DNA of 64,000 nucleotides from positions 1,860,001 through 1,924,000 of the forward strand of contig NZ_CP151642.1 in the NCBI RefSeq assembly GCF_038397785.1, in the 5' to 3' direction. A model generated the notes under the pieces. The model did not search any database. It saw only the letters and a list, made by a program, of their open reading frames with translations, and was not told the DNA's origin. Below, in pieces: positions 45,156-62,044 of the stretch (positions within the stretch are counted from its first letter, which is position 1; each line of letters begins with the position of its first letter). The DNA is from Salinibacterium sp. TMP30. GTDB taxonomy: Bacteria; Actinomycetota; Actinomycetes; Actinomycetales; Microbacteriaceae. A program made the translations under genes and the position numbers.

Positions 45156-45971
45156 TCAGCGCTCCTCGCGCGGGCGCACTTCATAGCGCCGCAACTCGAG
45201 CGCGGGATTGATAGCCCGCACCTCATCGAGGCGCGCGTGCTCAATGTGGGCGACCGCAACATCCGTGCGCTCACCAATCGTCACCAACTCAACCCCCATC
45301 GGGTCAACCACCATGCTGTTGCCGACACCGATCGGCGGCGCATGATCCGCAGCCGCGACGAAGACCGTGTTTTCGATCGCACGCGCCGTGAGCAGAGTGC
45401 GCCAGTGGTACTCCTTCAGCGGGCCACGCACCCACTCGGCGGGCACCACAATGAGGTTGGCCCCGGCATCCACCAAACGGCGTGACACCTCCGGGAACCG
45501 GATGTCGTAACAGGTCTGCAAACCGACAGTGAAGCCCTCCCACGCAAACGTCTCCGGCGCACCAATCGACCCCGGAATGACCCAGTCCGATTCGCGCTGC
45601 CCGAACGCATCGTAGAGGTGCTGCTTACGGTAAGTCGCCACCACAGCACCGGTGGGTGCAATCGCCACCAGGGTGTTCGAGAAGCGACCGATTTCGTCGC
45701 TCGACTCCAACATGCCAGCAGCGACATGAATGCGCAAACGCTGCGCCAGTGACGTCAACGCCTGCACGAAAGGGCCATCGAGCGGCTCCGCCGCCGCCAC
45801 CCAGTCATCCCCCATCGTGGGCGTAAAGTACGCCGAATACTCGGGGAACACCACAAAATTAGCCCCCCGCGAAACCGCCCGCCCAGCGAGCTCCGTGATC
45901 TTGGCGATATTCTCATCGCGATCAGCACCGGGCGCAAACTGGGCAACAGCAATGGTCGAGGCGGAAGTCAT
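45156..45971 (-). CDS. Carbon-nitrogen hydrolase (Nit/omega-amidase-like)
   Basis: 271 residues. The nitrilase-superfamily triad is E44 (VVFPEYSAYF), K116 (ATYRKQHLYD) and C154 (LQTCYDIRFPE). The KQHLYDAFG element and lack of a signal peptide fit the Nit1/Nit2 branch (omega-amidase or deaminated glutathione amidase) better than a true nitrilase. It starts at ATG 45971, 6 bases after TAGGCT (45978-45983 minus strand) which overlaps the preceding stop; so it has its own probable leaderless promoter. Confidence 0.9.
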   Translation of the reverse strand: MTSASTIAVAQFAPGADRDENIAKITELAGRAVSRGANFVVFPEYSAYFTPTMGDDWVAAAEPLDGPFVQALTSLAQRLRIHVAAGMLESSDEIGRFSNTLVAIAPTGAVVATYRKQHLYDAFGQRESDWVIPGSIGAPETFAWEGFTVGLQTCYDIRFPEVSRRLVDAGANLIVVPAEWVRGPLKEYHWRTLLTARAIENTVFVAAADHAPPIGVGNSMVVDPMGVELVTIGERTDVAVAHIEHARLDEVRAINPALELRRYEVRPREER

Positions 45972-45980
45972 GACCCCAGC

Positions 45981-47207
45981 CTACGACCCACCCTCAGCAA
46001 TCAGCTTGCGATACGGCAGCAGCGCAGCCTTCATGCCAATTCCCAGCACCCCCACAAGGCGGTCGTCGCGGTAGTAGCCCACGGCAACTTGATCGGCGAG
46101 GTCTCCCTCAAGGATGCGGATGTCGTCATCCGAGACCAAACCCAGCAGACCATAAGCCTGCAGTTTGATCTCGAACTGGTTCGACCAAAACGATGGCATT
46201 GGAGCGAAAGGCTTCGCAACAACCTCATCGAAAGAACCGTCATCGGCAAACCACGCAGCCAGCACTGCGCCAGCGCGCTTGCCCGTGTCGGTCGGGATAT
46301 TCCAGTGCTCAATACGACGAGCCACATCATCAAACATCGGGTTCGGGAAACGCGCAATATCGCCAACGACATAGACGTCATCGAGCGCGACACCCTCGGT
46401 CGTCACGGCACGCATCGCGTTATCAGCGAGCACACCATCTCCCATGTCGAGGCCAGTGCCCTCCAGCCATTCGATATTGCAGTCCGAGCCAACAGACTCA
46501 ATCAGAACATCAGCCTCAATCACGCGGCCATCGCTCAACTCAACAGACTCGACCGAAGTCTCACCATTGATTGCAGCAACAGTCACACCAGAGAAAATCT
46601 CCACGCCCTCAGCGTTAAGTCGCCGACGCATCTCCTGAGCGACCAGCAACCCCAACGGGCGAATCATTGGCTCAACGCTCGGAGTGACAATCGTCACCGA
46701 ACAACCCAGCTTGCTGGCGGTCGCACTCAGCTCGCAGCCCAAAAAGCCTGAACCGACAACAACCACACGCGCACCGTCAGTGAGCTCCGCGCGCAACGCC
46801 ATCGCGTCATCCAAGGAACGAACCACGTGACGGCCGGCGATCGGCTCAAAATCCAAGCGACGGGCGCGCAAACCGGTCGCAATCACCAGGGCACGCCACT
46901 CGTGCACGTTGCCATCGTCAGTAGTCAGAGTGCGAGCCTCGAGATCCACCGCGGATGCCCGAACCCCGAGCATCCACTCAACATCACCCATCTCCGCTCG
47001 CGACGGAAACGCCACAGCCTCGTGGGTCACGTCAGTGGCCAACACTTCCTTGGACAGGGGCGGACGGTTATAGGGCGCATGAAGCTCATCGCCCACGACA
47101 CGAATAGCACCGGTGTAGCCCGAACGACGCAGAGACTCCGCCGCGCGAAGCCCACCCATCGCCGCACCGACAATAACGACCGGTGCGGCGGGGTTAACCT
47201 CAGACAC
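45981..47207 (-). CDS. FAD/NAD(P)H-dependent ferredoxin reductase
   Basis: 408 residues from GTG 47207, whose first base is the last of the ferredoxin stop (TAGTG). The FAD motif PVVIVGAAMGGLRAAESL, NAD motif VVVVGSGFLGCELSATASKLG and YVVGDIARFP identify a rubredoxin/putidaredoxin reductase-type protein with a C-terminal dimerisation domain. It probably passes electrons from NADH to the co-encoded ferredoxin and on to the P450 in the divergent operon. Confidence 0.93.
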   Translation of the reverse strand: MSEVNPAAPVVIVGAAMGGLRAAESLRRSGYTGAIRVVGDELHAPYNRPPLSKEVLATDVTHEAVAFPSRAEMGDVEWMLGVRASAVDLEARTLTTDDGNVHEWRALVIATGLRARRLDFEPIAGRHVVRSLDDAMALRAELTDGARVVVVGSGFLGCELSATASKLGCSVTIVTPSVEPMIRPLGLLVAQEMRRRLNAEGVEIFSGVTVAAINGETSVESVELSDGRVIEADVLIESVGSDCNIEWLEGTGLDMGDGVLADNAMRAVTTEGVALDDVYVVGDIARFPNPMFDDVARRIEHWNIPTDTGKRAGAVLAAWFADDGSFDEVVAKPFAPMPSFWSNQFEIKLQAYGLLGLVSDDDIRILEGDLADQVAVGYYRDDRLVGVLGIGMKAALLPYRKLIAEGGS

Positions 47208-47398
47208 TATTCGACGATTCGGATGGCCTGCATCGGGCACACATCAACAGCAGCTTCAATGTTGTCGCGCTCAGAGTCGGGCGCTTCAGCCACATACTCA
47301 AGCTTGTCGTCATCGTTGAGCTTGAAGTTGTCGGGTGCCTCAAACACGCACTGGCCATAGTGCTGGCACTGGTTCATGTCGACTTCGATTTTGATCAT
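47207..47398 (-). CDS. [3Fe-4S] ferredoxin (P450-type)
   Basis: 63 residues, the usual length for ferredoxins serving actinobacterial P450s. Ligands are C11, C17 and C54 (CQHYGQC and VCPMQAI); the fourth ligand position is Y14, which predicts a [3Fe-4S] rather than a [4Fe-4S] cluster. It starts by ATGA overlap with the FAH-family gene and ends TAGTG in the reductase start, so translation is tightly coupled through the operon. Confidence 0.95.
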   Translation of the reverse strand: MIKIEVDMNQCQHYGQCVFEAPDNFKLNDDDKLEYVAEAPDSERDNIEAAVDVCPMQAIRIVE

Positions 47399-48273
47399 CG
47401 CTTTTCCTCAACTTTCGACGGGTAGAGATCTTTAGAAGGAGTACGAATTCCTCGGAACTCCCAGTCGCCACCCATTGCGGTCGACATTACCTCTTCGCTC
47501 TGGGTCGGCTGTGCACCCACGTCGGTGCGGATCGGAGTCGGGCCAGTAACAATGCGGTTAGTGAGCTTTCCGAGGCCTTCCACTTCAACCTCGACGACGT
47601 CTCCGGGCTGAACCGGACGTGAGAACGCGGGCGTTCCCGAGAACAACAGGTCACCAGGGCTCAGCGTGATTGTGCGCGCAATATCGGCAACGAGATAGTT
47701 CATATCCCACTCCATGTTGTCGGTGTTGTCGTCTTGCTTCACCTCACCATTCACAATGGTGCGCAACTGCTTGCCACGGAAATCCCAGTCTGTAACCAGG
47801 CCAGGACCGACCGGGGCGAGCGTATCGCTACCCTTCACTCGAAGCATGGAACCGGCATCCGTGTCACGGAAGTCATGCAGTCCGTAGTCGTTGCCGATGG
47901 TGTAACCAGCGATGTAGTCGCCAGCTTCATCAGGAGAAACGTTGCGGCACGTGCGACCAATGACGATCACAATTTCACCCTCGAAGTTCAACCACTTGCA
48001 GCCCTCGGGGCGCACAACATCACCCTTGTGGGTGTTGAGAGCGGTGACCGGCTTGTGAAAGTACGTCGGAGCTCCGGGCAGCTTGGTCATGAACTCTTCG
48101 GTGCGGCTTGCGTAGTTCAAGTGCACGGCAATGATTTTGCTTGGTTCGGTTGGCGGCAAATGGATTGCTTCATCCACGCCCACCTCGCGACCGTCACCGG
48201 CCACGAGGGTGTCACCATGGCGCACCACCTGTGTTGGGTAGCCGTCAAGAAGTACTCTGCGAAGCTCAGTCAC
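47395..48273 (-). CDS. Fumarylacetoacetate hydrolase-family protein (HpaG-like)
   Basis: About 292 residues. FAH-fold signatures: SKIIAVHLNYASR, EGEIVIVIGRTCRNV, GYTIGNDYGLHDF and SPGDLLFSGTPAF, with the metal-binding Glu/Asp. Known members in homoprotocatechuate degradation act as the 2-oxo-hept-3-ene-dioate isomerase/decarboxylase (HpaG) or hydratase. The gene order after HpaE- and HpaD-like genes supports HpaG. The start is uncertain: GTG 48273 overlaps the dioxygenase stop by 8 bases; ATG 48288 is an alternative. Overlaps the ferredoxin gene by ATGA. Confidence 0.88.
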   Translation of the reverse strand: MTELRRVLLDGYPTQVVRHGDTLVAGDGREVGVDEAIHLPPTEPSKIIAVHLNYASRTEEFMTKLPGAPTYFHKPVTALNTHKGDVVRPEGCKWLNFEGEIVIVIGRTCRNVSPDEAGDYIAGYTIGNDYGLHDFRDTDAGSMLRVKGSDTLAPVGPGLVTDWDFRGKQLRTIVNGEVKQDDNTDNMEWDMNYLVADIARTITLSPGDLLFSGTPAFSRPVQPGDVVEVEVEGLGKLTNRIVTGPTPIRTDVGAQPTQSEEVMSTAMGGDWEFRGIRTPSKDLYPSKVEEKR

Positions 48274-49177
48274 GAGAGAGGACCACATCCTTTGCTGCGG
48301 GGAAGCCACCTTCGGGCTTCGGGAACCAGACATGTACCTGGCCGGTGCCGATCGAGTTCTCATACTCGCTATACATCACACCGGGAGCCGTGCACGCTTC
48401 TTCACCGATCGCACCCGCCGTAATCAGCCAATGGCCAAACATTGCTTCGGGGCGAACTTTCTGGAACGCCGGCATGGTCTCCAGCACCTTCGCGTGGTTG
48501 CCCTCCTTGAACCAGTCAAGACGCTCATAGTCTGCCTCGCGGGCGGCATCCGAGAAGATGTGTGCCGGGTCGGCCATCTCGTGCTTGCGCAGTTCGCGCA
48601 GCTTGAAGAAGGTGTGCGAGAGAGCGCCAGAGGCGAGCAGGATGACGCGGCGGTCACTCTTAGCGATAGCCTCACCAATCGCACGGCCTGCACGCAGGAA
48701 GTCCTCGTCCGTTGCGGTCTGGCAGATCGAGACGCTCACCCATTTCTTGTTAGGCAGTCCCTTGCCGAGGTAGTCCCACAGGTTGATCGTGGCGTACATG
48801 ATCGGCAAGTACTCGTCATCAATCGGGGTGATCCAAGTACCGTTTTTCTCGGCCTGCTCCCCCATCAGCTTCGCAAGCTCAGGGTCGCCCTTAAAGTCGT
48901 AAGGCACAGCACTCATGCCACGCGGAAGCTCCTCCGAGGTGAACTTGCCGTGACGACGCTCATGCGAAGTAACAACAAACTCCACAGTGGTTGCCCAGTG
49001 GCTGTCGAGCACGACAACAGTGTCGTAGTCGTCGTTCTCGAAGTAATCCTTGCGGAGCCGTTCGAGGCCTTCAACGAGCGTCGAGTCTTTGCCCTCATTG
49101 AGCTCCATACGGGTCTCTTTAGGCAACATGATCGTGGGTACGTGAGCAATCAGCCCAACCCCAACAACTTCTCCCAT
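48266..49177 (-). CDS. hpaD: Class III extradiol ring-cleavage dioxygenase (HpaD-like, homoprotocatechuate 2,3-dioxygenase)
   Basis: 303 residues from ATG 49177 with AAGGA six bases upstream. It follows enterobacterial HpaD: LIAHVPTIMLP at the start (metal His), VVVLDSHWATT, FTSEELPRGMSAVPYDFKGDPELA, LLASGALSHTF and near the end IGTGQVHVWFP. It would open the catechol ring of homoprotocatechuate with Fe(II) and oxygen. Two bases separate it from the aldehyde dehydrogenase gene. Substrate by homology; other catechols cannot be excluded. Confidence 0.88.
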   Translation of the reverse strand: MGEVVGVGLIAHVPTIMLPKETRMELNEGKDSTLVEGLERLRKDYFENDDYDTVVVLDSHWATTVEFVVTSHERRHGKFTSEELPRGMSAVPYDFKGDPELAKLMGEQAEKNGTWITPIDDEYLPIMYATINLWDYLGKGLPNKKWVSVSICQTATDEDFLRAGRAIGEAIAKSDRRVILLASGALSHTFFKLRELRKHEMADPAHIFSDAAREADYERLDWFKEGNHAKVLETMPAFQKVRPEAMFGHWLITAGAIGEEACTAPGVMYSEYENSIGTGQVHVWFPKPEGGFPAAKDVVLSRD

Positions 49178-49179
49178 GA

Positions 49180-50643
49180 CTATTCCTTCCATCCGTTCGG
49201 TGAAACCACCGTGTTCTTAACATCTGCATAGAAATCAAACGACCAGGTGCCGCCCTCGCGACCAACACCCGACTTCTTCGAGCCACCAAAGGGTGCCCGC
49301 AAGTCACGGACAAAGAAGCAGTTGACCCAGATTGTGCCTGCCACAAGCTGCTTGGCAATGAGATCGGCGTGGTCGCGGTTGCCCGAGACCAGAATTGCGG
49401 CCAAGCCAAACTCGGTGCCGTTGGCCATCGCCACGACTTCCTCATCGGTGCGGAATGTCTGCATCGTCAGCACCGGCCCGAAGACCTCCTGAGTGACAAT
49501 CTCACTACCAACTTCGGGATTTTTCACCAGAGTCGGTGCGAAGTAGAGCCCGCCTAGTTCGGCGTTCGGGGTGCCGCCAACAACGATATTCGCGCCGCCC
49601 TCCTTTGCACGATCGACGAAGCCCTTGATCCGCTCAAAGTGCACGCGGTGAATCTGTGGGCCAATGTCGGTCTCGATGTCGCGAGGGTCACCCTGACGCA
49701 AAGTCGCAACCTTGGCCGTGAAAGCGTCGGCAAAGGCATCCGCGATGTCTTCATGAACGAGGATGCGCGTACCCGAGAGGCATACCTGCCCAGCGTTGTC
49801 GTACTGCTCCACCGCAAGGGTTGCTGCGAGCTCGAGGTCGGCATCGTGCATGACAATGCACGGGCTTTTGCCCCCAAGCTCAAAACTGCAGGGGGTCAGG
49901 TTGTCTGCCGCTGCACGGGCGATCGACTTGGCGGTGGGCACGGAGCCAGTGAACGAGATACGACTGAGGTCGGGGTGGGCCACTAAGGCTGCACCCGCCT
50001 CTTTGCCGTAGCCTTGCACGACGTTGAACACGCCTGCCGGCAAGCCTGCTTCGACGGTGATGTCGGCCAACAGCGATGCGGTGAGCGGCGTCCATTCTGC
50101 GGGCTTCAGCACCACGGTGTCCCCGGCGGCGAGCGCGGGGGCGATCTTCCACGTGGCAAGCATGAGGGGTGCATTCCACGGGGTGATTAGCGCGGCAACG
50201 CCCGAGGGATCCCACGAGACGTGGTTGTTGTGACCGCGCGTTTCGAAGTCGGGATGCCCAAGGTCGTTCACGAGGTAGTCAGCGAAGAACCGGAAATTGT
50301 GCGCCACTCGCGGCATTACACCGCGCAGGTGGCTGCGCAGTAGTGCGCCGTTGTCCATCGTCTCAACGTTGGCAAGTTCGCTGACGCGATCTTCGACAAG
50401 GTCGGCGATCTTGTGCAAGATCGCTGCACGGTCATGGGGGCTTGTTGCGGCCCATGCGGGGAACGCTGCACGCGCTGCCGCGACCGCAAGGTCGACTTCT
50501 GGTTGGCCACCGCGGGAAATTTCTCCGAGGTTGCTGCCGTCGATGGGGGATGTGTTCGTGAAGGTTTCGTCGGAGGCTACGCGTTCTCCGTTGATGAAGT
50601 GCCGCGTATCGACGGTCACCCCGGCTACTTGAACGTTCGTCAT
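49180..50643 (-). CDS. hpaE: Aldehyde dehydrogenase (HpaE-like)
   Basis: 487 residues. Catalytic C288 in NAGQVCLSGTRI, E255 in FELGGKSP, and the NAD motif SFTGSVPTAKS are intact. Adjacent HpaD- and HpaG-like genes suggest 5-carboxymethyl-2-hydroxymuconate semialdehyde dehydrogenase, the step after ring cleavage; a gamma-glutamyl aldehyde (PuuC-like) substrate is also possible given the amine genes nearby. First gene of the minus-strand catabolic operon. A candidate promoter (TTGTTT, 17 bp, TAAGGT, minus strand) is followed by a perfect dyad at 50672-50697. Confidence 0.85.
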   Translation of the reverse strand: MTNVQVAGVTVDTRHFINGERVASDETFTNTSPIDGSNLGEISRGGQPEVDLAVAAARAAFPAWAATSPHDRAAILHKIADLVEDRVSELANVETMDNGALLRSHLRGVMPRVAHNFRFFADYLVNDLGHPDFETRGHNNHVSWDPSGVAALITPWNAPLMLATWKIAPALAAGDTVVLKPAEWTPLTASLLADITVEAGLPAGVFNVVQGYGKEAGAALVAHPDLSRISFTGSVPTAKSIARAAADNLTPCSFELGGKSPCIVMHDADLELAATLAVEQYDNAGQVCLSGTRILVHEDIADAFADAFTAKVATLRQGDPRDIETDIGPQIHRVHFERIKGFVDRAKEGGANIVVGGTPNAELGGLYFAPTLVKNPEVGSEIVTQEVFGPVLTMQTFRTDEEVVAMANGTEFGLAAILVSGNRDHADLIAKQLVAGTIWVNCFFVRDLRAPFGGSKKSGVGREGGTWSFDFYADVKNTVVSPNGWKE

Positions 50644-50671: not shown

Positions 50672-50697
50672 TAAGTCATTCGGATACTAATGACTTA
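50672..50697. promoter_or_regulatory. Regulon dyad A upstream of the ALDH operon
   Basis: TAAGTCATT (50672-50680) and AATGACTTA (50689-50697) are perfect 9-bp arms about the 8-base centre CGGATACT. The centre contains GATA, as in sites B, C and D. It lies just downstream of a candidate promoter, where a bound MarR dimer would block transcription. Confidence 0.7.
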
Positions 50698-50765
50698 CCT
50701 TAGCGAGTGATTCCAAGCCAAACAAGCGTTAGCAGCGTCTGACCATCAAAAAATATGGGCGAACA

Positions 50766-51266
50766 CTAATTCTTCGGCTCGACGCCAGCCGTAATAACCC
50801 GCAGCATCTCAGCCAGTTCTTCACGTTTGGCGGGATCAACGGGACCGGTCACTGCCTGCTCTTGAATGTTGAATGCCGGAAAGAGTTCTATCATCAGCGC
50901 GCGGCCACGATCCGTGAGCTTGACGACAACTAGGCGTCCATCGCTCGCACTACGTTCACGGGTGAGCCAGCCGCGGCGTTCGAGTGTGGAAAGCACGCCA
51001 GTGAGGGTCGCTTTCGAAAAACCACCCTCGAGCGCGATCTGACGAGTCTCGATGGGCTCCCAGATCCATGTGACCCACAGCACAACAAAGGCCGTCCACG
51101 ACAGGTTGTGTTCTGACAGAACCGTGCGCTCAAAGTGATTGCGCACAGCATTTGCCGCACGAAAAAGGTTCGACGCAACTGCCATCGCAGAGTAGTCAAG
51201 CGGCAAGCCGCCAACTCTCGCCTGTACCTGACGCTCTGTTTCGGTGAGTGTGTGTGGTCCGGCCAC
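50766..51266 (-). CDS. MarR family transcriptional regulator of the catabolic island
   Basis: 166 residues from GTG 51266 (GAGGGGACC upstream). Winged helix: LSWTAFVVLWVTWIW, then GFSKATLTGVLSTLERRGWLTRE and wing RSASDGRLVVVKLTDRG. In E. coli HpaR, also a MarR protein, represses the homoprotocatechuate genes, so an aromatic-acid ligand is likely. It lies between the ALDH operon and the divergent P450 operon, with dyad B between it and P450. It probably represses itself and both operons. Confidence 0.9.
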   Translation of the reverse strand: MAGPHTLTETERQVQARVGGLPLDYSAMAVASNLFRAANAVRNHFERTVLSEHNLSWTAFVVLWVTWIWEPIETRQIALEGGFSKATLTGVLSTLERRGWLTRERSASDGRLVVVKLTDRGRALMIELFPAFNIQEQAVTGPVDPAKREELAEMLRVITAGVEPKN

Positions 51267-51370
51267 TGAGGTCCCCTCGCTCGCATTTAGCTGCGGTTAC
51301 TCTATCCAACCACCGGCGTCGAGAAAGTTTTTGTGGGCAACCACTCGCCCTAACGTGACCACGTGCCCTA

Positions 51371-51388
51371 TTGTTTGGATACAAACAA
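51371..51388. promoter_or_regulatory. Regulon dyad B between MarR and P450 genes
   Basis: TTGTTTGGATACAAACAA: perfect 7-bp arms TTGTTTG/CAAACAA around GATA. It sits 17 bp before the P450 start and close to the MarR promoter, suitable for autorepression and P450 control. Confidence 0.75.
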
Positions 51389-51404
51389 CTTTCGGAGGAT
51401 TGAG

Positions 51405-52658
51405 TTGACTTCAACGGCGAACGTCACCCTGGCAGACCTAGACCTATTCGAAAACGGCACACCGTGGAACGTTTTCGACAAGCTTCGAACAGAAGCACCC
51501 GTGCACTGGTCAGAAGAAGCAGCGCCCAACCATGGCTTCTGGTCGCTCACTCGGTATCACGACATCGTTGCTGTGCTGCGGGATACTGAAACGTTTTCGA
51601 GCGAACGTGGCGGTGTCAACATTGAAGAACTTGATGACGAGCAGCTCGAAGTACGCAAGTCAATGCTCGAGACGGACGGTGTGCGTCACCGGGCACTCCG
51701 ACGACTGATGCAGGGTGAATTCACGCCCAAGGCGGTCGGTGGTTATGAGATCTTTCTCCGCGGCCTCACTGCGAGCACGCTGGATGCTGCGTTTGCCAAC
51801 AAGGAGTTTGAGTTCGTCAGCCAGGTAGCGGCAGACTTCCCTATCCGCGTTCTCGCCAAGATGCTTGATGTTCCCGACGCGGACACCCACAAGCTCATCG
51901 ACTGGGGCGACCGGATGATCGGCAACGACGATCCGGAACACGCCGATGTGCTGGCAAGCTCCGCAGAGAGTGAAGAGTTTCGTCTCCTGCCTTTCCGCTC
52001 CCCGGCCGCACGTGAAGTATTCGAATACGGCAATGATCTGGCCAACAAGCGTCGCGGAAAAGATGGCACCGACCTCGTTTCGCGCCTCGTCAACCAAGAG
52101 CCGATGGATGGTAAAGCTCTCAACGAGCGCGACTTCAATAGCTACTTCCTGCTGCTCGTCGTCGCCGGTAACGAGACCACTCGCCACACGATTACGCACA
52201 CCATGAACTACCTCATGGACAACCCTGAGCAGATGGCGCTGCTGCAAGAAAAGCCCGAGCTCATCCCGTGGGCTGTTGAAGAGTTCTTGCGCATGGCAAG
52301 CCCCGTCTATCACTTCCGTCGTACGGCCACGAAAGACACCGAGATCAACGGTCAAGCCATCAAAGAAGGCCAAAAAGTCGTCACGTGGTTTGCCGCCGGC
52401 AACCGTGACCCCGAGGTCTTCGAAAACCCCTACACAATGGATGTCACTCGCAACCCGAACGAACACATGGCGTTCGGTCGCGGTGGTCCGCACATGTGTC
52501 TCGGAAACTCTCTTGCGCGTCTTGAAATCCGTATTATGTTCGAGACGCTGTTGCCCCGGATTTCCGGAATGACGAAACTGAGTGAAGCAGCACGTCTGCG
52601 CAGTAATTTTGTCAACGGAATCAAACGACTCCCGGTACGCGTCGAATTAGCAAAGTAG
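51405..52658 (+). CDS. Cytochrome P450 (class I bacterial, CYP125/CYP124-like branch)
   Basis: 417 residues from TTG 51405 (GGAGG six bases upstream). The I-helix oxygen motif is VVAGNETTRH; the K-helix ExxR is in VEEFLRMASP; the haem loop FGRGGPHMCLGNSLARLE has C365. The GNETTR and FGxGGPHxCLG forms are typical of the steroid/fatty acid/terpenoid CYP125-124-268 group; function in aromatic or aryl-ether oxidation cannot be excluded. The divergent operon supplies a [3Fe-4S] ferredoxin and reductase. It starts the plus-strand operon with the PLP decarboxylase four bases behind. Confidence 0.93.
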   Translation: MTSTANVTLADLDLFENGTPWNVFDKLRTEAPVHWSEEAAPNHGFWSLTRYHDIVAVLRDTETFSSERGGVNIEELDDEQLEVRKSMLETDGVRHRALRRLMQGEFTPKAVGGYEIFLRGLTASTLDAAFANKEFEFVSQVAADFPIRVLAKMLDVPDADTHKLIDWGDRMIGNDDPEHADVLASSAESEEFRLLPFRSPAAREVFEYGNDLANKRRGKDGTDLVSRLVNQEPMDGKALNERDFNSYFLLLVVAGNETTRHTITHTMNYLMDNPEQMALLQEKPELIPWAVEEFLRMASPVYHFRRTATKDTEINGQAIKEGQKVVTWFAAGNRDPEVFENPYTMDVTRNPNEHMAFGRGGPHMCLGNSLARLEIRIMFETLLPRISGMTKLSEAARLRSNFVNGIKRLPVRVELAK

Positions 52659-52662
52659 GCAC

Positions 52663-54033
52663 ATGAGCGAGGTACGCCCACAAGGTCGGCCCCACGCGGT
52701 GTGGGGCGACGAGACTGACGTAGTACAGCTCGCCTTGGACTGGACCGCCAAACGGATGGTTCGCAAAACCGACCCCCTGTCAACAGCTCGGCCCGCAGCC
52801 GAACTTGCGGCGGAGGTTGGCGACGCGATCCGTCCGGAAGGCATCGGAGGCGCGGAAGCTTTGCGCATCTTCGACGAAATTCTTGAGCCCGCAACTCGTG
52901 CTCAAGATGACCCGCTGAACCTCGCGTATATCGCTGCTGCGCCCACCCGGGCTGCGGTTGCGTTCGATCTCGTCACGAGCGCTGCGAACATTTTTGGTGG
53001 GCTCTGGGAGTCAGGCGCCGGGGCGATCTTCGCAGAAAATCAGGCACTCCAGTGGATCATCGGACTGCTCGACTGGCCAGAAACGGCCGGCGGAACCTTC
53101 GTCTCGGGGGGCACCTCAGGAAACCTCTCTGCGCTCATGACTGCACGCGAAACCGCCAAGACCCGCCGTGGTGGAAGACCCGCGGGAGGTTGGCAACTCG
53201 CCTGCACCACCAACGCGCACTCGTCGATTCAGTCAGCTGCGAAAGCGCTCGACGTTGACGTGGTTGATGTACCAATCGATGACCGAGGGCACATGACCGG
53301 TGCTGCCTTGCGGGCCATTCTTGAACAGTCACCTAATGTGTTTGCCGTTGTGGCATCCGCCGGCACCACCAATGAAGGTCTCGTCGATGACCTTTCGGAC
53401 ATTGCCGACGTCTGCGAGGAGTTCGGAGTGTGGATGCACGTTGATGGCGCCTACGGCGGCGCGGGGCTCGCTGCCCCGAGCATCCGGCACCTGTTCGACG
53501 GCATTGAACGGGCCGACAGCTTCATCGTTGACCCGCACAAGTGGCTCTTCGCACCCTATGACTGTTGTGCCCTCGTGTACCGCGAACCCGAGCTTGCGCG
53601 AGCGGTGCACTCGCAGCATGCCAGCTATCTGGATGCCATCGACCGCAACGAGTGGAACCCTAGCGAACTCGCCCTGCACCTTTCGCGGCGCGTACGCGGG
53701 CTACCGCTGTGGTTCAGTCTTGCTACCCACGGCACCGACAAGTATCGGGATGCGATCGAGAGTTCGGTGACAACTGCTCGCGAAGTTGCCCGCGCCATCG
53801 ACGAGAGCGACTTTCTCGAACTCGTTCGCGAACCAGAACTGTCGGTGCTGCTGTTCGAACGAAAAGGGTGGACGGGCGAGCAGTATTCGGAGTGGTCGAA
53901 GAAGGCTGCGCACGATGGTGTGATCCTGTGTGTTCCCACGTCATGGCGCGGCAAGAGTGTGCTGCGACTCGCGTTCGTGAACCCCGATACCGAGACCGCA
54001 CAGGTGATGGCGGCCCTCGAAACGCTTCACTAG
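52663..54033 (+). CDS. Group II PLP-dependent decarboxylase (aromatic-L-amino-acid/glutamate decarboxylase family)
   Basis: 456 residues. MHVDGAYGGAGLAAPSIRHL has the Asp that contacts the PLP ring nitrogen; the Schiff-base Lys is in IVDPHKWLFAPYDC. FVSGGTSGNLSALMTARE and NAHSSIQSAAKAL agree with the DOPA/tyrosine/tryptophan decarboxylase group. Its product would be an aromatic or other primary amine plus CO2, which fits with the amine-handling (gamma-glutamyl) enzymes farther along. The substrate is not determined. Four bases after the P450 stop, in the same operon. Confidence 0.88.
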   Translation: MSEVRPQGRPHAVWGDETDVVQLALDWTAKRMVRKTDPLSTARPAAELAAEVGDAIRPEGIGGAEALRIFDEILEPATRAQDDPLNLAYIAAAPTRAAVAFDLVTSAANIFGGLWESGAGAIFAENQALQWIIGLLDWPETAGGTFVSGGTSGNLSALMTARETAKTRRGGRPAGGWQLACTTNAHSSIQSAAKALDVDVVDVPIDDRGHMTGAALRAILEQSPNVFAVVASAGTTNEGLVDDLSDIADVCEEFGVWMHVDGAYGGAGLAAPSIRHLFDGIERADSFIVDPHKWLFAPYDCCALVYREPELARAVHSQHASYLDAIDRNEWNPSELALHLSRRVRGLPLWFSLATHGTDKYRDAIESSVTTAREVARAIDESDFLELVREPELSVLLFERKGWTGEQYSEWSKKAAHDGVILCVPTSWRGKSVLRLAFVNPDTETAQVMAALETLH

Positions 54034-54089
54034 GCAAGGCAATCGCGTTTGCCTAACGTTGGTGAGAACAAAGGGAAAGGCGTGACGGC

Positions 54090-54425
54090 ATGAAAACAAC
54101 AGTGTCTCTTGTTGACCTAGCCGAAACAGAGTTGGCGCGTGCTATCGAATCCGAAAACGGGCGTAGTGCCGTCACCGTGCAGGGAGGTCGCGATCAGCAG
54201 CTCCGTCAAACTCTCATGGCGATGCGAGCTGGCGAGGGCTTAGCGGAGCACTCGAGCCCCGGCGAGGCAACCCTGCAGGTGCTTATCGGTCGCGTCATGC
54301 TGCGTTCAGGCGAACAATCGTGGCCCGGAGTTGTTGGAGATCTTCTTCCGATCCCTGCGGCCTCTCATGCTCTGGATGCCGTCGAAGATTCAGTGGTTTT
54401 GCTGACGGTCGTGAAGGCTGTCTAG
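54090..54425 (+). CDS. Small cupin-domain protein
   Basis: 111 residues forming a single cupin barrel: LMAMRAGEGLAEHSSPGEATLQVLIGRVML then GDLLPIPAASHALDAVEDSVVLL. Of the usual metal ligands, H in AEHSSP and the H of SHALDA can be seen, with the Glu close by. Such small cupins bind metals or ligands and are found as auxiliary or detoxifying proteins. 56 bases after the decarboxylase on the same strand, possibly the same transcript. Convergent with the amidotransferase. Confidence 0.75.
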   Translation: MKTTVSLVDLAETELARAIESENGRSAVTVQGGRDQQLRQTLMAMRAGEGLAEHSSPGEATLQVLIGRVMLRSGEQSWPGVVGDLLPIPAASHALDAVEDSVVLLTVVKAV

Positions 54426-54470
54426 CGTCGCGCTGGCCCATGCGAGGTGCTGATTGAGCTTCGCAAGGCA

Positions 54471-55178
54471 CTAGCCGAGCTTGGCTACCCGATCCAAGAA
54501 GGCATCCACAAGTTCCGCCGTGCGCTGGCCAGCGATGCCCTCTTCGGCGCGAGTTTGCGCCAGCATTGCCTCGGGGTTTTGACCATCGGCGATCACTTCG
54601 TTGATGCCCCCTTGGTCAAGCCAGCCTGCGAGGATGGCAGTGTTCAGTTCGGGGTGAAACTGCACCGCCAGGCTGCGGCCATACGTGAATGCCTGCGGGG
54701 CAATCGGGTTGCGGGCGATTTCGACGGCGCCCTCGGGCATCGTCCACTGGTCGTAGTGAAACTGGAACCAGGGGCCATTAGAGACGAGCGATGTGTCGTC
54801 ACTGTGGATTGCCGTCCATCCGATCTCAGCCTTTACTCCGCGGGCGACAGTTCCGCCGAGCGCGCGAGCAATCAGCTGACCGCCGAAGCAAATTCCGAGC
54901 ACCGGGATGTCTGCTTCGATGGTTGTGCGCACCCACTCAAGTTCGGGAGCCAACCAACGGCCGATGCACGCATCATCCCAGGCACCCCAGGGGGCACCCA
55001 TCGGAATAACGAGGTCGTACTGGGAAGCATCCGGAAACTCGAAGTCCACATTGGGGGTCTCGAAGTTCTCTTCGGTGACGACCATGATTTCGTCGATGTC
55101 GAAACCGCGTTCGCGGAGACGATCGCCTACTGGCCCGCTCGCGGTGACGTGATCATGCTGCACCAAGAGTGCTCTCAT
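54471..55178 (-). CDS. Class I glutamine amidotransferase-like protein
   Basis: 235 residues. The nucleophile elbow is VLGICFGGQLIARALGG (C97); the His lies in VQFHPELN. No synthetase domain is attached, so it is a stand-alone amidotransferase/hydrolase. Placed divergently from a gamma-glutamylamide synthetase-like gene across a shared operator, it may cleave gamma-glutamyl amides (PuuD-like function), although the sequence class is closer to GMP synthase-like GATases. AAAGG lies upstream of the ATG. Confidence 0.85.
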   Translation of the reverse strand: MRALLVQHDHVTASGPVGDRLRERGFDIDEIMVVTEENFETPNVDFEFPDASQYDLVIPMGAPWGAWDDACIGRWLAPELEWVRTTIEADIPVLGICFGGQLIARALGGTVARGVKAEIGWTAIHSDDTSLVSNGPWFQFHYDQWTMPEGAVEIARNPIAPQAFTYGRSLAVQFHPELNTAILAGWLDQGGINEVIADGQNPEAMLAQTRAEEGIAGQRTAELVDAFLDRVAKLG

Positions 55179-55235
55179 CTGTATACCTTTCAGGTAAATT
55201 CTCGCTAGGAGTGGACAGCGACACGGCTATGTGGC

Positions 55236-55250
55236 TTAGTATCTCACTAA
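55236..55250. promoter_or_regulatory. Short inverted repeat upstream of the glutamine-synthetase-like gene
   Basis: TTAGT (55236-55240) and ACTAA (55246-55250) with 5-base spacer; immediately precedes dyad E and may be a half-site variant. Confidence 0.35.
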
Positions 55251-55270
55251 TCGTTCAGTGCCGAACGATT
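55249..55270. promoter_or_regulatory. Regulon dyad E between the amidotransferase and glutamine-synthetase-like genes
   Basis: AATCGTTC (55249-55256) and GAACGATT (55263-55270), perfect 8-bp arms. The half-site TCGTTC matches the left arm of site D (TCGTTCG). The centre is AGTGCC instead of GATA. It lies within 20 bases of the synthetase start, between the divergent genes. Confidence 0.65.
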
Positions 55271-55286
55271 TATTTTCGGAGGAAGA

Positions 55287-56633
55287 ATGACTCTCGACAT
55301 ACCAGCTCTACAAGCAGACTTGCAGGCCAAAGGGATCGATGTTCTGCGCCTGATTTTCCCTGATGTCCTCGGGCTCACGCGCTCGAAGGACCTTCTTGTC
55401 AGCCAACTTCACAACACCAAGTCTCCGATGTTCTGTCAGGGGGTGTGGGTCACTACCACCGGCGGTGACGTGCTCGATGGCAATCACATCATGTCCTCCG
55501 GCCTCCCGGATCTCCTCACCCAGATTGACCCCAACACACTGTCAATGATGCCGTGGGAGCCCGGCGTTGCGATGGTCATTGGAGATGCCTTCAACCCCGA
55601 CCACAGCGTCAGTGAAATCGCGCCCCGCTCGGTACTGCAGAGCGTTATCGCACAATACACAGCGCTCGGACTCACACCGATCGTGGGCCCCGAACTCGAG
55701 TTTTACATTGCCAACTACGACGAAACAGAGGGCTGGAGCCGCAGCCTCAGCCGCACCGGCCGCGTCTACACGACCGGAGAAAGCGTTGACCCTGGTGGTC
55801 AGTTCCTCAACCTCATGCGCATGCTCGACGGAATGGACATCGGTGTCTTCGCCGGCAACCACGAGTTCAGCCCCTCGCAATATGAGATCAACCTCTGGCA
55901 CAGCGAAGCCTTGGATGCCGCCGACCGCACCTTCTTGTTCAAGACAGCGGTTCGCGACATCGTCGCTCGCACCGGCAAGCACGCTCTCTTCACTGGCAAG
56001 CCCTGGGACGACGAGGGTGGCAGTGGATTCCACCTGCACTTCTCTGTTGTCGACCAACAGGGCAACAACATCATGTCGGATGGCGGTCACGGCCTTTCCG
56101 ATATTGCCCACCACATGATCGCGGGCCTCCTCGAGAACGCCGGAGCAATCGCAGCGCTCTCGAACCCCACGATCAACGCCTACAAGCGCTTGGGGCCAGA
56201 CACACTCGCTCCCTACCGCGCCAACTGGGGCCACGATAACCGCAGCGCGATGTTGCGCGTACCGCCTGAGCGCGGCGCCGGGACGCGATTGGAAATGCGC
56301 CTTGGCGACCCAGCAGCGAACCCCTACCTGCTGATCGCATCCACGCTGGCTGCCGGGCTCGATGGCATCACGCGGAGCCTTACGGCCCCAGCACCGGTCG
56401 CAGGCTGGGCTTACGAAGACAACTCCGCCCCGATCCTCCCGATGACCCTCACCGCTGCTCTCGACGCCTTAGACGCGGACACAGTGATGCGGGAAGCTAT
56501 GGGCAGCACCGTTATCGATGTCTTCAGCGTGCTCAAGCGCGATGAAGTGAAGCGCTACGAAGATTCTGTGGCAGACAAGAACACGCGCGAAGTGAGCCAG
56601 TGGGAGATCGACGAGTACTTCGCCGACTACTAA
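55287..56633 (+). CDS. Glutamine synthetase-like gamma-glutamylamide synthetase (type I family)
   Basis: 448 residues. GS-fold motifs are intact: metal site VGPELEFYI, ammonium/amine region GSGFHLHFSV, and NPTINAYKRLGPDTLAPYRANWGHDNRSAMLRV. The N-terminal domain is short, and there is no adenylylation-site Tyr motif typical of GlnA, so it belongs with PuuA/GlnA3/GlnA4-type enzymes that join glutamate to an amine using ATP. The amine may be the product of the PLP decarboxylase, but this is inferred. CGGAGG precedes the ATG; the terminator at 56673 follows. Confidence 0.88.
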   Translation: MTLDIPALQADLQAKGIDVLRLIFPDVLGLTRSKDLLVSQLHNTKSPMFCQGVWVTTTGGDVLDGNHIMSSGLPDLLTQIDPNTLSMMPWEPGVAMVIGDAFNPDHSVSEIAPRSVLQSVIAQYTALGLTPIVGPELEFYIANYDETEGWSRSLSRTGRVYTTGESVDPGGQFLNLMRMLDGMDIGVFAGNHEFSPSQYEINLWHSEALDAADRTFLFKTAVRDIVARTGKHALFTGKPWDDEGGSGFHLHFSVVDQQGNNIMSDGGHGLSDIAHHMIAGLLENAGAIAALSNPTINAYKRLGPDTLAPYRANWGHDNRSAMLRVPPERGAGTRLEMRLGDPAANPYLLIASTLAAGLDGITRSLTAPAPVAGWAYEDNSAPILPMTLTAALDALDADTVMREAMGSTVIDVFSVLKRDEVKRYEDSVADKNTREVSQWEIDEYFADY

Positions 56634-56672
56634 ACCTTGACCGCGGTCCAATGTGGTCGTTGGGAACATATG

Positions 56673-56705
56673 AAAAGCCTCGCCGAGTGGATTGGCGAGG
56701 CTTTT
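56673..56705. terminator. Strong bidirectional terminator
   Basis: AAAAGCCTCGCC (56673-56684) and GGCGAGGCTTTT (56694-56705), perfect 12-bp arms with a 9-base loop. The A- and T-runs on both flanks suit termination on either strand, between the convergent synthetase and acetoacetate decarboxylase-family genes. Confidence 0.92.
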
Positions 56706-56723
56706 CTTATGCGCAGAGGCTAT

Positions 56724-57533
56724 TTAGATGGCGTTCGAGCGATCTTCCACTAGGTCTCCACCATTGAAGGTGACACCGATTTCGCGGTAGTAGCCCCCGA
56801 GAATCTCCTCAACGGGAAGGATCGAGTGCAGTTCGTCCCACTGGGAATCGCCCAAGTGCAGTTCTGCATCTCCCTTCCAGGTCTCACCAATCTCCACGTC
56901 AGTGCCGCCCATCGTGATGAGCTGGTCGAGCGACATGCCGGCATCTTTACTGATGGATGGCATGAAGCGACTGTGCAACATCTTGTGTCCATTGACAAAA
57001 CCGTTGCTCTCGGCAGGCTCACGCAGCGTGACGACGGCGGAGGCGAGACGGTGATCGTAGGCCGCGATGGACGCGCCGAATTGGCCACCGTTCTCGAGCT
57101 TGGGAGTTGCCTTGCCCTTGTTGAACACCCGCGTGACAGCAATGTTGCCGAGCTTCTTGGGGTAACCCTGGAACCAACCACGGCCAATCGCGAAGTCTTT
57201 GGTCACCCAGATGGCGACGCAACGGCTGTACACCGTGCCCTTGTACGAACAGCGCACAACCATGAACGCTTCTAAGTACTGTGCACGCACGGGATCAAGT
57301 AATTCGAGACCACCGGTGCTGCACGACTGCCAGTCAGCCCAGACGATGGCAACCGCACCGGGCTGCTCTGGGGCGAGGTCAATATCGGGTGGGAGAATCG
57401 CACGTACGTTGGCTGGATCGGTCAGATACTCGACGGTGAGTAGCGTTCCCGAGTAGTACCAGGGCATCTCAGGTACGAGCGAACTCGACCCTTGCGGTGT
57501 GAGCGGCGGGAGAAATCCTTTGAGTTCGGTCAT
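56724..57533 (-). CDS. Acetoacetate decarboxylase (ADC) family protein
   Basis: 269 residues. PWYYSGTLLTVEYLTDPANVRAILPPDI is the family's N-terminal region, and the Schiff-base lysine pair is present in QGYPKKLGNIAV. EASIHRxE-like part is replaced by VNGHKMLHSRFMPS. Members decarboxylate acetoacetate or act on other beta-keto/2-oxo acids, and some perform aldol or dehydratase chemistry. Divergent from the APC permease with two dyads (C and D) in the shared promoter, so it belongs to the same regulon. The substrate is unknown. Confidence 0.85.
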   Translation of the reverse strand: MTELKGFLPPLTPQGSSSLVPEMPWYYSGTLLTVEYLTDPANVRAILPPDIDLAPEQPGAVAIVWADWQSCSTGGLELLDPVRAQYLEAFMVVRCSYKGTVYSRCVAIWVTKDFAIGRGWFQGYPKKLGNIAVTRVFNKGKATPKLENGGQFGASIAAYDHRLASAVVTLREPAESNGFVNGHKMLHSRFMPSISKDAGMSLDQLITMGGTDVEIGETWKGDAELHLGDSQWDELHSILPVEEILGGYYREIGVTFNGGDLVEDRSNAI

Positions 57534-57556
57534 GCGCCAGAGTTTAGCCCAAAAGG

Positions 57557-57568
57557 TTCGTATCCGAA
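57557..57568. promoter_or_regulatory. Regulon dyad C upstream of the ADC-family gene
   Basis: TTCGTATCCGAA: arms TTCG/CGAA about TATC (GATA on the minus strand). On the minus strand it continues as TCATTCG-GATA, the same left half as site A. Confidence 0.65.
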
Positions 57569-57627
57569 TGAATTTTTGTATTCACTTGACTAAGACGCCC
57601 TGTCTTCGCCATTGTTTAACTCAACTC

Positions 57628-57645
57628 GTTCGGATACGGACGAAT
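57628..57645. promoter_or_regulatory. Regulon dyad D upstream of the APC permease
   Basis: TCGTTCGGATACGGACGA: outer arms TCGT/ACGA and inner CG/CG around GATA; one mismatched pair. It lies 30 bp before the permease start, and 60 bp from dyad C. Confidence 0.7.
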
Positions 57646-57674: not shown

Positions 57675-59171
57675 ATGGCGCTAGACCAAAAATCCCAAGA
57701 AAACTCCGATCGGACCCTGCGCAAAGAGCAGCTCGGTGTAATCGGAATCGTCTTCTTTGTCGTGGCAGCAGCCGCGCCTCTAGTCGGAATGACGGGCGCA
57801 GTGCCCGTCGCAATCGTGCTCGGCAATGGAGCGGCCGCCCCCGGCGCCTACCTATTCGCGGGCATCATCCTTCTCTTGTTCAGTGTCGGCTACGCCGCAA
57901 TGAGTCAACGCGTAACAAACACGGGAGCGTTCTTCGCCTATATCGGTCGCGGGCTTGGTCGCCATGCCGGAATCGCCGCATCCTTCGTTTCGGTGCTCGC
58001 CTACCTCACGATTCAGCTCGCCATCTTTGGATTCTTCGGCGGCGTTATGGCAGGACAAGTCGGCCTGCTCCCCTGGTGGGGTTGGACGCTCCTAGCTTGG
58101 CTGGCCGTAACGGCACTGTCATTGCTGCGCGTAGACGTCGGCGCCAAACTGCTCGGTGTGCTGATGCTCGCCGAACTCACGGTGCTCGTAATCGCCGCAG
58201 TTGCCATCCTCATCGATGGTGGACCCGAGGGACTCAACTGGGCAGCATCGTTCTCGCCTGACCTTATTCTTGCCGGAGGTCTTGCGGGTTCCGCCGGAAT
58301 TGCCTTCGCGTTCGCCTTCGCCTCGTTTATTGGATTCGAAGCCACCGCAATTTATGGCGAAGAAAGCAAAGACCCGAAGCGTGCCGTACCGCGCGCAACC
58401 TACCTCGCTGTTGGCGTGATCACGGTGCTCTTCGCCTTCACGTCATTCGCACTCGTCACCGGAATGGGCGCCTCGAACGTTATCGAAGAAACGCTTGCTC
58501 GCTCTGGAGGACTCGAAGACCCCGCCGGCGTGCTCTTCTCGCTCGCCAGCGACTACGTCGGGCCTTGGCTCGCCACCGTCATGAGCATCCTCGTGCTGTC
58601 GAGCCTGTTCGCGGGACTGCTCGCATTCCAGAACGCCGCAAGCCGCTACTTGTTTGCACTCGGCCGCGGTGGCGTAATTGCCAGTTCGGCAGGAACAGTA
58701 AATGGTCGCGGCGCTCCTGGCCGTGCATCCATGATCGTGTCGGTTATCACGGGAATCGTGATGATCCTGTTCGCCGTGTTCCAGCTCGACCCGATCGCCA
58801 ACATGTTCTTCTGGTTCAGCGGCCTCGCGGTCGTAGCGATCGTGCTCATCGAGGCGCTCGTGTGTATTGCGATCATCCGCTTCTTCCTGCAGAACAAGGG
58901 CACCGAGAACATATTTGTCACGATGATCGCACCGATCTTGGCATTCATCGGCCTCGTGCTCGCCGAGTACCTGCTGATGTCACGCTTTGGACTGCTCGCC
59001 GGTGACCTCACGCTCGCTGCCGGAGTCGATCCCACAGTGACCGCATTCGGGCTCAACGCGTTCGGCTGGTTCCTTGTGCTCTCACCATTCATCGTTCTCG
59101 TAATCGGCTACATCGTGTCGCTGACGCGTAAGAGCGTCAACGAAGAACTACTTCGGGATGAGATTTCCTAG
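57675..59171 (+). CDS. APC superfamily amino acid/amine permease
   Basis: 498 residues with about 12 membrane spans. LGVIGIVFFVVAAAAPLVGMTGAVPVA is the APC first helix, and FAFASFIGFEATAIYGEESKDPKRAVPRATY the family's conserved helix 6 region. GAGGAG precedes the ATG. Controlled through dyads C/D together with the divergent ADC-family gene; probably imports the amino acid or amine used by the island. A terminator follows its stop. Confidence 0.92.
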   Translation: MALDQKSQENSDRTLRKEQLGVIGIVFFVVAAAAPLVGMTGAVPVAIVLGNGAAAPGAYLFAGIILLLFSVGYAAMSQRVTNTGAFFAYIGRGLGRHAGIAASFVSVLAYLTIQLAIFGFFGGVMAGQVGLLPWWGWTLLAWLAVTALSLLRVDVGAKLLGVLMLAELTVLVIAAVAILIDGGPEGLNWAASFSPDLILAGGLAGSAGIAFAFAFASFIGFEATAIYGEESKDPKRAVPRATYLAVGVITVLFAFTSFALVTGMGASNVIEETLARSGGLEDPAGVLFSLASDYVGPWLATVMSILVLSSLFAGLLAFQNAASRYLFALGRGGVIASSAGTVNGRGAPGRASMIVSVITGIVMILFAVFQLDPIANMFFWFSGLAVVAIVLIEALVCIAIIRFFLQNKGTENIFVTMIAPILAFIGLVLAEYLLMSRFGLLAGDLTLAAGVDPTVTAFGLNAFGWFLVLSPFIVLVIGYIVSLTRKSVNEELLRDEIS

Positions 59172-60281: not shown

Positions 60282-61826
60282 CTAGCTCCGGGGCTCATCG
60301 CGTCCGTCGAGCGCGAGGAGTTCCTCTTCGACGGCGCCGCCATAGCCTTCCTGTTGCGGATCTCTGTGCAGCCCACCTGAGATCGCATACTTCTCCTCTG
60401 GCGAGAGCACGAGACGCTTGCGTCCATACAGCGCGAAGATGATCAGCATGACGATATAAACCACGGCGATCGCGGCGATCGCCGGTCGTGCCGGTTCGTT
60501 GATGAAGAACCCGAAGAAAATCGCGAGCGAGAGAACACCAGCGATGATTGCGCCGGGAACACCCCAGGGGCTCCGATACGGACGGCTCGCGTTCGGGAAC
60601 TTCTTACGCAGGATAAGGAACGAGACCATCTGAAGGACGTAAGCGATTACCGCACCCCATACGGCGATGTTCAGGACGATCGCGCCAGCGACGCCTTCTG
60701 CACCGCCGAGCGAATCCACGAGCACCAACGCCACGAATCCGATGATGGCACCCACGAGCAGTGCAACTGCTGGGGTCTGGCGCTTACCTGTTAGCGACAG
60801 GAACTTCGGGTAGTAGCCAGCCCGCGAGAGCGAGTACATGTTGCGCCCGTAGGCAAACATGATCCCCTGCAGCGACGCGAGCAGCCCGACCAGGGCGAAC
60901 AGTGCGAGCGCGGCGGCGATCTGATCGCCGACGATGGCGCGGAACCCGTCGAGGAGAGGCTCGCCCGAGCTTGCGATCGTAGACGCACCGACAACGCCCG
61001 TGTTCAGGAAGAGCACCAGCAGACCAGTGATGATCAAGGTGGTGCGGGCGATCAGTCCTGCTTTGGGGATGTCGCGAACGGGGTTGTGCGCCTCTTCAGC
61101 CGCGAGTGGGAGCTCCTCGATGCCGAGGAAGAACCACATCGCGTAGGGAAGCGCGAACAAGATCGGGATCACACCGTGCGGCAGGAACGACGATTGGCCA
61201 GGATCGGGAGCGATATCGAAGAGGTTGTCCCAGCTGAACAGCCCAGAGAATGCCGCCATTGCCGAGAACACGAGAAGGATAGCGATCGAGATGATGGCCA
61301 CAATTATCGCGAACTTAAAGGAGATGGCAGCGCCGGCGGAGTTGAGCGCAATGAAAACGATGTACAGGATCAGCCACCAGACTGGTGCCGGCAGCGAGAA
61401 GCCCAGCAGCTCACTGGTGATGAAGTCCGCGTAGCCCGCTGAGAAATAAACGATAACAGCGGTGGTGGCGACGTATTCGATCGTCTCGGCAAGGCCGGTG
61501 ACGAAACCACCCCACGGCCCCATTGCCGCACGGGCGAAGGAATAGGCGCCTCCCGTGTGCGGCATTGCCGAGGCCATCTCTCCGATGCTAAAAATCATGC
61601 CGTAATACATGAAAATGAGGAGCGCGAAAGCGATCAGCATTCCCCCGAAACCGGCAAAGCCGATGCCGAAGTTCCAGCCCGAGAAGTCCCCGGAGATGAC
61701 GGCTGCTACGGCGAGGCCCCAGAGGCCCCAAATACCAGCAGTGCGTTTGAGGGTGCGCTTCTCGAAATACCCAGCCTCAGCCGTGGTGTACTTCACCCCG
61801 GAGACGTTCAGTGTGTCTTTGGACAT
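60282..61826 (-). CDS. APC superfamily permease, ethanolamine-permease-like
   Basis: 514 residues from ATG 61826 with AAAGGA upstream. About 12 spans; GIWGLWGLAVAAVISGDFSGWNFGIGF at the first helix and SIGEMASAMPHTGGAYSFARAAMGPWGGFVTGLAETIEY are much like ethanolamine permeases (Eat/EutP-type) and related amine importers. The divergent neighbour is a glutamine-synthetase-like gene of the GlnA4 branch, which in Streptomyces glutamylates ethanolamine, so ethanolamine or a monoamine is a plausible cargo. Confidence 0.9.
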   Translation of the reverse strand: MSKDTLNVSGVKYTTAEAGYFEKRTLKRTAGIWGLWGLAVAAVISGDFSGWNFGIGFAGFGGMLIAFALLIFMYYGMIFSIGEMASAMPHTGGAYSFARAAMGPWGGFVTGLAETIEYVATTAVIVYFSAGYADFITSELLGFSLPAPVWWLILYIVFIALNSAGAAISFKFAIIVAIISIAILLVFSAMAAFSGLFSWDNLFDIAPDPGQSSFLPHGVIPILFALPYAMWFFLGIEELPLAAEEAHNPVRDIPKAGLIARTTLIITGLLVLFLNTGVVGASTIASSGEPLLDGFRAIVGDQIAAALALFALVGLLASLQGIMFAYGRNMYSLSRAGYYPKFLSLTGKRQTPAVALLVGAIIGFVALVLVDSLGGAEGVAGAIVLNIAVWGAVIAYVLQMVSFLILRKKFPNASRPYRSPWGVPGAIIAGVLSLAIFFGFFINEPARPAIAAIAVVYIVMLIIFALYGRKRLVLSPEEKYAISGGLHRDPQQEGYGGAVEEELLALDGRDEPRS

Positions 61827-61997
61827 CCTGTTTCCTTTGCGCTCTGGTTGCATGCAGCGACGGGTCGGGCACACAACGCTGTGAGAATACCTGCGATGAC
61901 TATACGGCGATCAATGGTTGTTGACTACCCATAACCAACATAATTTTTGCCTGTTGCCGGGATATTTCTTCCGACATCTCGGACATATCTGTGATCT

Positions 61998-62019
61998 AAT
62001 GGTCGAAAAGTGCACCATT
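61998..62019. promoter_or_regulatory. Inverted repeat upstream of the second glutamine-synthetase-like gene
   Basis: AATGGT (61998-62003) and ACCATT (62014-62019) separated by 10 bases; 26 bases before the start. It does not match the GATA dyads, suggesting a different regulator. The 218-bp gap around it has no other gene that I can support. Confidence 0.45.
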
Positions 62020-62044
62020 TGGCTTGCTCAACGAGGAGAAGTTC

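Follow-up and report, generated by a model that had tools for sequence, protein, structure and literature searches.

Five 18-bp inverted repeats in the promoter gaps of a gene island of Salinibacterium sp. TMP30 are probably operators of a single MarR-family repressor, encoded within the island at 50766-51266, that would control the island as a whole. The island lies in a 64,000-nucleotide stretch (hereafter the window, in whose numbering positions are given) of a genome that consists of a single contig of 2,685,429 bp with a completeness of 99.97%. In window order the repeats are A, B, E, C and D. They stand upstream of genes for an aldehyde dehydrogenase (ALDH), the MarR protein and a cytochrome P450, a glutamine amidotransferase (GATase) and a glutamine-synthetase-like ligase (GS), an acetoacetate-decarboxylase-family protein (ADC) and an APC permease:

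50676..50693, plus strand: putative operator A, TCATTCGGATACTAATGA; upstream of the minus-strand ALDH operon; conserved in 17/17 regions from other genera
50766..51266, minus strand: MarR-family regulator, HpaR-like, 166 aa; PF01047 at 47.6 bits against a curated cut-off of 24.6; proposed reader of the operators
51371..51388, plus strand: putative operator B, TTGTTTGGATACAAACAA; MarR/P450 gap; perfect 7-bp arms; conserved in 16/17 regions
55251..55268, minus strand: putative operator E, TCGTTCAGTGCCGAACGA; GATase/GS gap; minus-strand centre GGCACT; 11/16 regions beat shuffles with a matrix built from A-D
57554..57571, minus strand: putative operator C, TCATTCGGATACGAACCT; upstream of the ADC gene; ADC/APC gap conserved in 14/14 regions
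57626..57643, plus strand: putative operator D, TCGTTCGGATACGGACGA; upstream of the APC permease gene; same gap, 14/14

A matrix scan of the genome and its relatives, as a preliminary description of this DNA had proposed, found the sites conserved in orthologous promoters and not randomly scattered. The A-D matrix was applied to 17 loci from seven other genera, leaving aside four own-genus loci, the L044 ADC/APC region (longer than 400 bp) and regions with genes beyond the stretch, and a region was counted if no more than 1 in 200 dinucleotide shuffles equalled it. This holds for ALDH in 17/17, MarR/P450 in 16/17, GATase/GS in 11/16 and ADC/APC in 14/14 regions, so that the regulator's own gap carries, by sequence, the palindromic site expected of a MarR-family operator. 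The failing MarR/P450 case, L037, nonetheless has intact arms around a GGGGGC centre. Among the alignments listed, the site is retained while its flanks diverge. A broader test took 80 named loci minus six Salinibacterium/PHSC20C1 records (the metagenome-assembled genomes L098 and L104, Salinibacterium by title, were retained) at a score threshold of 14. Here the A-D matrix finds a site before ALDH (70/71), MarR (63/71), P450 (63/71), ADC (46/51), APC (42/44), GS (43/64) and GATase (43/62), and before almost no inner gene: the LigB-type dioxygenase 0/65, fumarylacetoacetate hydrolase (FAH) 0/41, the pyridoxal-phosphate (PLP) decarboxylase 0/10, nitrilase 0/7 and ferredoxin reductase 1/50. Markov controls give about 1% or less. 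Because the genes of each pair (MarR/P450, GATase/GS, ADC/APC) mostly diverge from a shared gap, the seven genes represent about four regions.

A family matrix of 25 sites was scored on all 80 named loci, using orthologues with an identity of 45% or more whose alignment begins no later than residue 25 and for which 250 bp of upstream sequence was present. It raises the counts to 76/77 (ALDH), 75/77 (MarR), 75/77 (P450), 68/70 (GS), 66/68 (GATase), 47/49 (APC) and 52/56 (ADC), with LigB 0/71, FAH 0/47, PLP 0/16, nitrilase 0/13 and ferredoxin reductase 1/56; since this matrix was trained partly on the promoters it later scored, these counts are not independent. This matrix has 353 matches in 1.07 Mb; the windows upstream of the seven genes, 92 kb together, account for 331 of them, and a Markov control gives about 7 matches in total. 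The sites are confined to the starts of transcription units and do not precede inner genes.

The sites also travel with the MarR gene. Among 398 genomes of the own family, 56 have a MarR match at E<=1e-15, and the strict pattern TYRTTHGGATACKAAYRA is found in 32: 31 of these 56 and 1 of the 342 MarR-negative genomes (Fisher p ~1e-29, a value inflated by relatedness). The 56 include distant homologues in G164 and G320, which have neither cluster nor site. Within the own genus, 11 of 27 genomes carry a quartet of matches arranged as A-D, among them all seven MarR-positive ones, and G242, G282 and G394, which lack both MarR and a P450 match at 1e-60, have scattered matches only. In G181 the ADC/APC pair lies about 56 kb from MarR with both sites kept. 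Beyond the family, eight genomes of three other families encode a MarR protein 46-54% identical to that of the island. In seven of them (L082, L083, L084, L087, L088, L089 and L091) the cluster genes are reordered, and 1-4 sites scoring at least 16 are present, mostly beside ALDH, ADC, GS and APC, with Markov means of 0-0.02. The eighth, L085 (G537), has neither cluster genes nor sites within the stretch examined, and MarR homologues without the cluster (L065, L066, L086, L090) have no sites. A site scoring at least 16 adjoins MarR in other families only in L087, in a gap shared with GS, and in L089; putative autoregulation is for this reason clear in the own family but not elsewhere. The proposal of the preliminary description that one regulator serves all five sites is thus strongly supported by promoter conservation, by co-occurrence with MarR, by the site in the MarR gap in the own family and by survival of the sites after reordering.

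Several further sites were observed in these genomes. A weaker one, TCTTTAGGATACAAACGG (score 17), lies at 15534-15551 of L058 before a PLP-decarboxylase homologue (31% identical) near the relocated ADC/APC pair. In the other-family locus L082, sites at 9746-9763 and 13856-13873 precede, respectively, a reductase gene beside a VanA-type oxygenase gene and a luciferase-like monooxygenase gene. In three genomes of one genus (G270 and the MarR-positive G128 and G362), TCATTCGGATACGAACGA occurs on the minus strand some 95 bp upstream of a cytochrome bd operon (L051 7494-7511, L052 7758-7775, L053 7382-7399). A gene at 7784-8473 of L049 lies between ALDH and MarR, a position at which several other relatives show a gap about as long; considered as a rival regulator, this gene was rejected, as it encodes a Peptidase_C26 amidotransferase.

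All five repeats exist within a few bases of where they had first been placed, D being off by 2 bp; A sits within a 26-bp repeat at 50672-50697. Their earlier characterisation as GATA-centred dyads fits A-D, which share the centre GGATAC, but is too narrow: across orthologous promoters the centre varies (GGATGC, GGGTAC, GGACAC, GGCACT) and the arms stay constant. It follows that E, with centre AGTGCC (GGCACT on the other strand), belongs with the others as a full member. The relatives' consensus TYRTTHGGNNNYDAAYRA is exact in the own genome at A, B and E and nowhere else, D departing from it by one mismatch, and some relatives have a GGATAC centre at E (TCGTTAGGATACTAACGA in L055 and L056). 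Each of the GATase/GS regions listed (20/20) contains a site whose arms pair well and whose centre varies (GGCCAT, GGACTC, GGGTAA and others), and with the family matrix only 2/70 GS genes in the named loci are without an E-type site. Since E matches the family consensus and keeps paired arms while varying in centre, the arms are, as far as comparison of sequences goes, the code, and GATA is one of several centres. B has perfect arms, but its GGATAC centre runs opposite to that of the MarR/P450 sites in 20 relatives.

How rare are the sites? Across the genome (2.69 Mb), TYRTTYGGATAC is matched at A-D and at no fifth place, and its reversed control nowhere; as the pattern was drawn from A-D, the fair test is conservation elsewhere. 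In the window, 0.52 matches to TYRTTYGGATACRAAYRA with up to three mismatches are expected and 7 are observed (both strands at A, B and D, one strand at C), a count reached by 0/100 shuffles. Patterns made of the arms only were rejected as a search tool because they are too common. When up to one mismatch to TYRTTHGGNNNYDAAYRA is allowed, the genome search lists 27 rows; 20 of them, at 18 places, are not in the island, and the reversed control yields 16. Additional regulon members were sought at 11 of these 18 places and rejected. Open reading frames 198 aa or longer overlap nine of them; two of the nine (L175, L176) are also less than 200 bp from the start of another frame. The other two look like promoters. 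The one at 1131344, before a solute-binding protein, was dismissed since relatives conserve the remainder of the promoter but have diverged at the site; at 1377852, in front of a GDSL-like lipase, the relatives' matches mostly omit the site.

The structure model of the MarR protein (predicted local distance difference test score, pLDDT, 90.9) has MarR structures as its best matches and suggests an ordinary MarR fold with an extra N-terminal helix of lower confidence. Its nearest named relatives are from Salinibacterium and the marine actinobacterium PHSC20C1. The region around the predicted recognition helix (SK-TL-GV--TL), assigned from general knowledge of the family and from the model, is nearly invariant among 21 aligned MarR proteins. 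In the mechanism that we infer, a MarR dimer would bind the arms TYRTTHG/CNAAYRA on or next to the core promoters that drive the ALDH-LigB-FAH operon, MarR itself and P450-PLP, GATase and GS, ADC, and APC. Bound MarR would keep the island off, acting as a repressor rather than an activator, until a pathway compound, either the substrate amine or a ring intermediate, releases it. With start codons assigned from protein alignment, the median distance between the end of the site and the start is 32 bp (ALDH), 26 bp (P450), 28 bp (GS), 18 bp (ADC) and 26 bp (APC); for the divergent partners it is 104 bp (MarR) and 68 bp (GATase). By eye, A lies just past TTGTTT-17-TAAGGT on the minus strand, D past TTGACT-18-CATTGT and E past TAGTAT, B overlaps TATTGT, and C may cover a -35 element. 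A repressor that blocks polymerase would fit this layout best.

Some results weigh against a single MarR repressor reading all five sites. The strict pattern is missing from 25/56 MarR-positive genomes, although those of the 25 that were examined carry variants. G270, whose one site precedes the cytochrome bd operon, lacks a MarR match at 1e-15, and five other-family loci (L082, L083, L084, L088, L091) have no site scoring at least 16 adjoining MarR. These last two points are what one would expect if a different DNA-binding protein, encoded elsewhere, read the sites and the MarR gene were merely one of its targets. We consider this unlikely, given that the motif and the MarR gene go together across the family, that MarR stays with the cluster in the seven other-family genomes despite reordering, and that the predicted recognition helix region is so nearly invariant. 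Slightly less probable still is that MarR is the reader of the sites but serves as an activator, or in both roles, at some of the promoters. There is a precedent in Yersinia pseudotuberculosis, where HpaR, according to the excerpt of PMC7180172, represses the hpa operon and activates the type VI secretion system T6SS4; the median gaps of 18-32 bp to the nearest start, and the position of A, B, D and E on or just past a -10-like hexamer as judged by eye, suit blocking instead. Strict sigma-70 scans found no promoter pair at the sites, so the overlap seen by eye is only suggestive.

Other adverse points concern the repeats themselves. C differs from the family consensus by more than one mismatch, and E is weak: it scores 8.7 with a GGATAC-rich matrix, and under the A-D matrix 5/16 GATase/GS regions fail. 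The arms alone are not rare: they have 9 exact matches in the genome and, with up to two mismatches, 33 in the window against 42.8 expected by chance. Together with a terminator-like flag on E, this commonness might suggest that the repeats are palindromes that arose by chance or that they serve as transcription terminators. That explanation is highly improbable in view of conservation beyond shuffles and the location of the sites at unit starts; the chance-like match at 1131344, by comparison, was lost in relatives from an otherwise conserved promoter. Operators of the island's own MarR repressor remain the reading we favour. The remaining genes of the island are as follows:

45156..45971, minus strand: carbon-nitrogen hydrolase (family match); possible member of operon A
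45981..47240, minus strand: ferredoxin reductase (family match); possible operon-A member, from strand and order
47395..48363, minus strand: fumarylacetoacetate-hydrolase family, HpaG-like, below the equivalog cut-off
48266..49192, minus strand: LigB-type ring-cleavage dioxygenase, HpaD-like, below the equivalog cut-off
49180..50643, minus strand: aldehyde dehydrogenase, HpaE-like, below the equivalog cut-off
51405..52658, plus strand: cytochrome P450 (family match)
52663..54033, plus strand: PLP-dependent decarboxylase (family match), downstream of P450
54471..55178, minus strand: class I glutamine amidotransferase (family match)
55287..56633, plus strand: glutamine-synthetase-like amine ligase (PF00120); below the cut-off of the gamma-glutamylputrescine synthetase model
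56724..57533, minus strand: acetoacetate-decarboxylase-family protein (PF06314)
57675..59171, plus strand: APC amino-acid/amine permease (PF00324)

Between the convergent GS-like and ADC genes, AAAAGCCTCGCC...GGCGAGGCTTTT (56673-56705) has, by eye, the appearance of a bidirectional terminator. Next to the island, at 60282-63412, are another APC permease and another gene with a glutamine-synthetase domain, and the window scan found no operator-like 18-mer there.

The functions first proposed for the island (ring cleavage, P450 oxidation, amine glutamylation and uptake) are consistent with the protein families, and its substrate is likely an aromatic amine. HpaB (PF03241) was not found in the genome with a profile that was positive in 4/14 known genomes as a control; the P450 may therefore carry out ring oxidation in its place. 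The relatives' Peptidase_C26 proteins resemble gamma-glutamyl-GABA hydrolase (below cut-off), and VanA-type oxygenases occur in the other-family loci L082 and L087, in L082 with the reductase gene starting 28 bp from a site. Together with the HpaB result, these hint at a route for hydroxylated or methoxylated phenethylamine-type compounds. Such a route, which we put forward tentatively, would comprise APC uptake, gamma-glutamylation by the GS-like ligase, oxidation or O-demethylation by a P450 replacing HpaB, and homoprotocatechuate-type cleavage, under one operator code in streamlined freshwater and marine actinobacteria. Many aquatic actinobacteria carry the island, including Salinibacterium, Rhodoluna, Aurantimicrobium and Microcella. 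Genes that were annotated separately become one testable regulon, in which the operator code would indicate pathway membership and narrow the search for the substrate, and the putative operator promoters could be used in expression or biosensor tests.

Among known systems, HpaR, the regulator of homoprotocatechuate degradation in E. coli W and Y. pseudotuberculosis, appears to be the nearest named regulator. HpaR (TIGR02337) is the best NCBIfam match of the island MarR, its sequence matches include the HpaR structure 7el2, and the two proteins share the MarR fold and HpaE/HpaD/HpaG-like neighbours, the latter all below equivalog cut-offs. Yet the island protein scores 53 bits against an equivalog cut-off of 121.2. 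The operators differ as well: the Yersinia HpaR operator is given as TTAA-N4-TTAA in the excerpt of PMC7180172, a form present in none of A-E, which follow TYRTTHG-N4-CNAAYRA, and the island regulon adds P450, GS-like, GATase, ADC and APC genes. MftR, MexR, PcaV, Sco3205 and BpsR, some with structures containing DNA or aromatic ligands, appear by model comparison to have the same fold; the likeness, at 20-28% identity, is one of protein fold. The aniline and 1-naphthylamine modules AtdA and NpaA combine, as far as the excerpt of PMC11335346 describes them, a GS-like ligase, an amidotransferase-like enzyme and an oxygenase; the island has the same three kinds of enzyme, with a P450 in place of the Rieske dioxygenase and with HpaD-type cleavage genes. 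In the open-licence literature, a scope that mostly leaves out subscription papers, we found no account of the operator, its core TTCGGATACGAA or the regulon. We consider the regulon to be new, and the kind of system to which it belongs to be already known.

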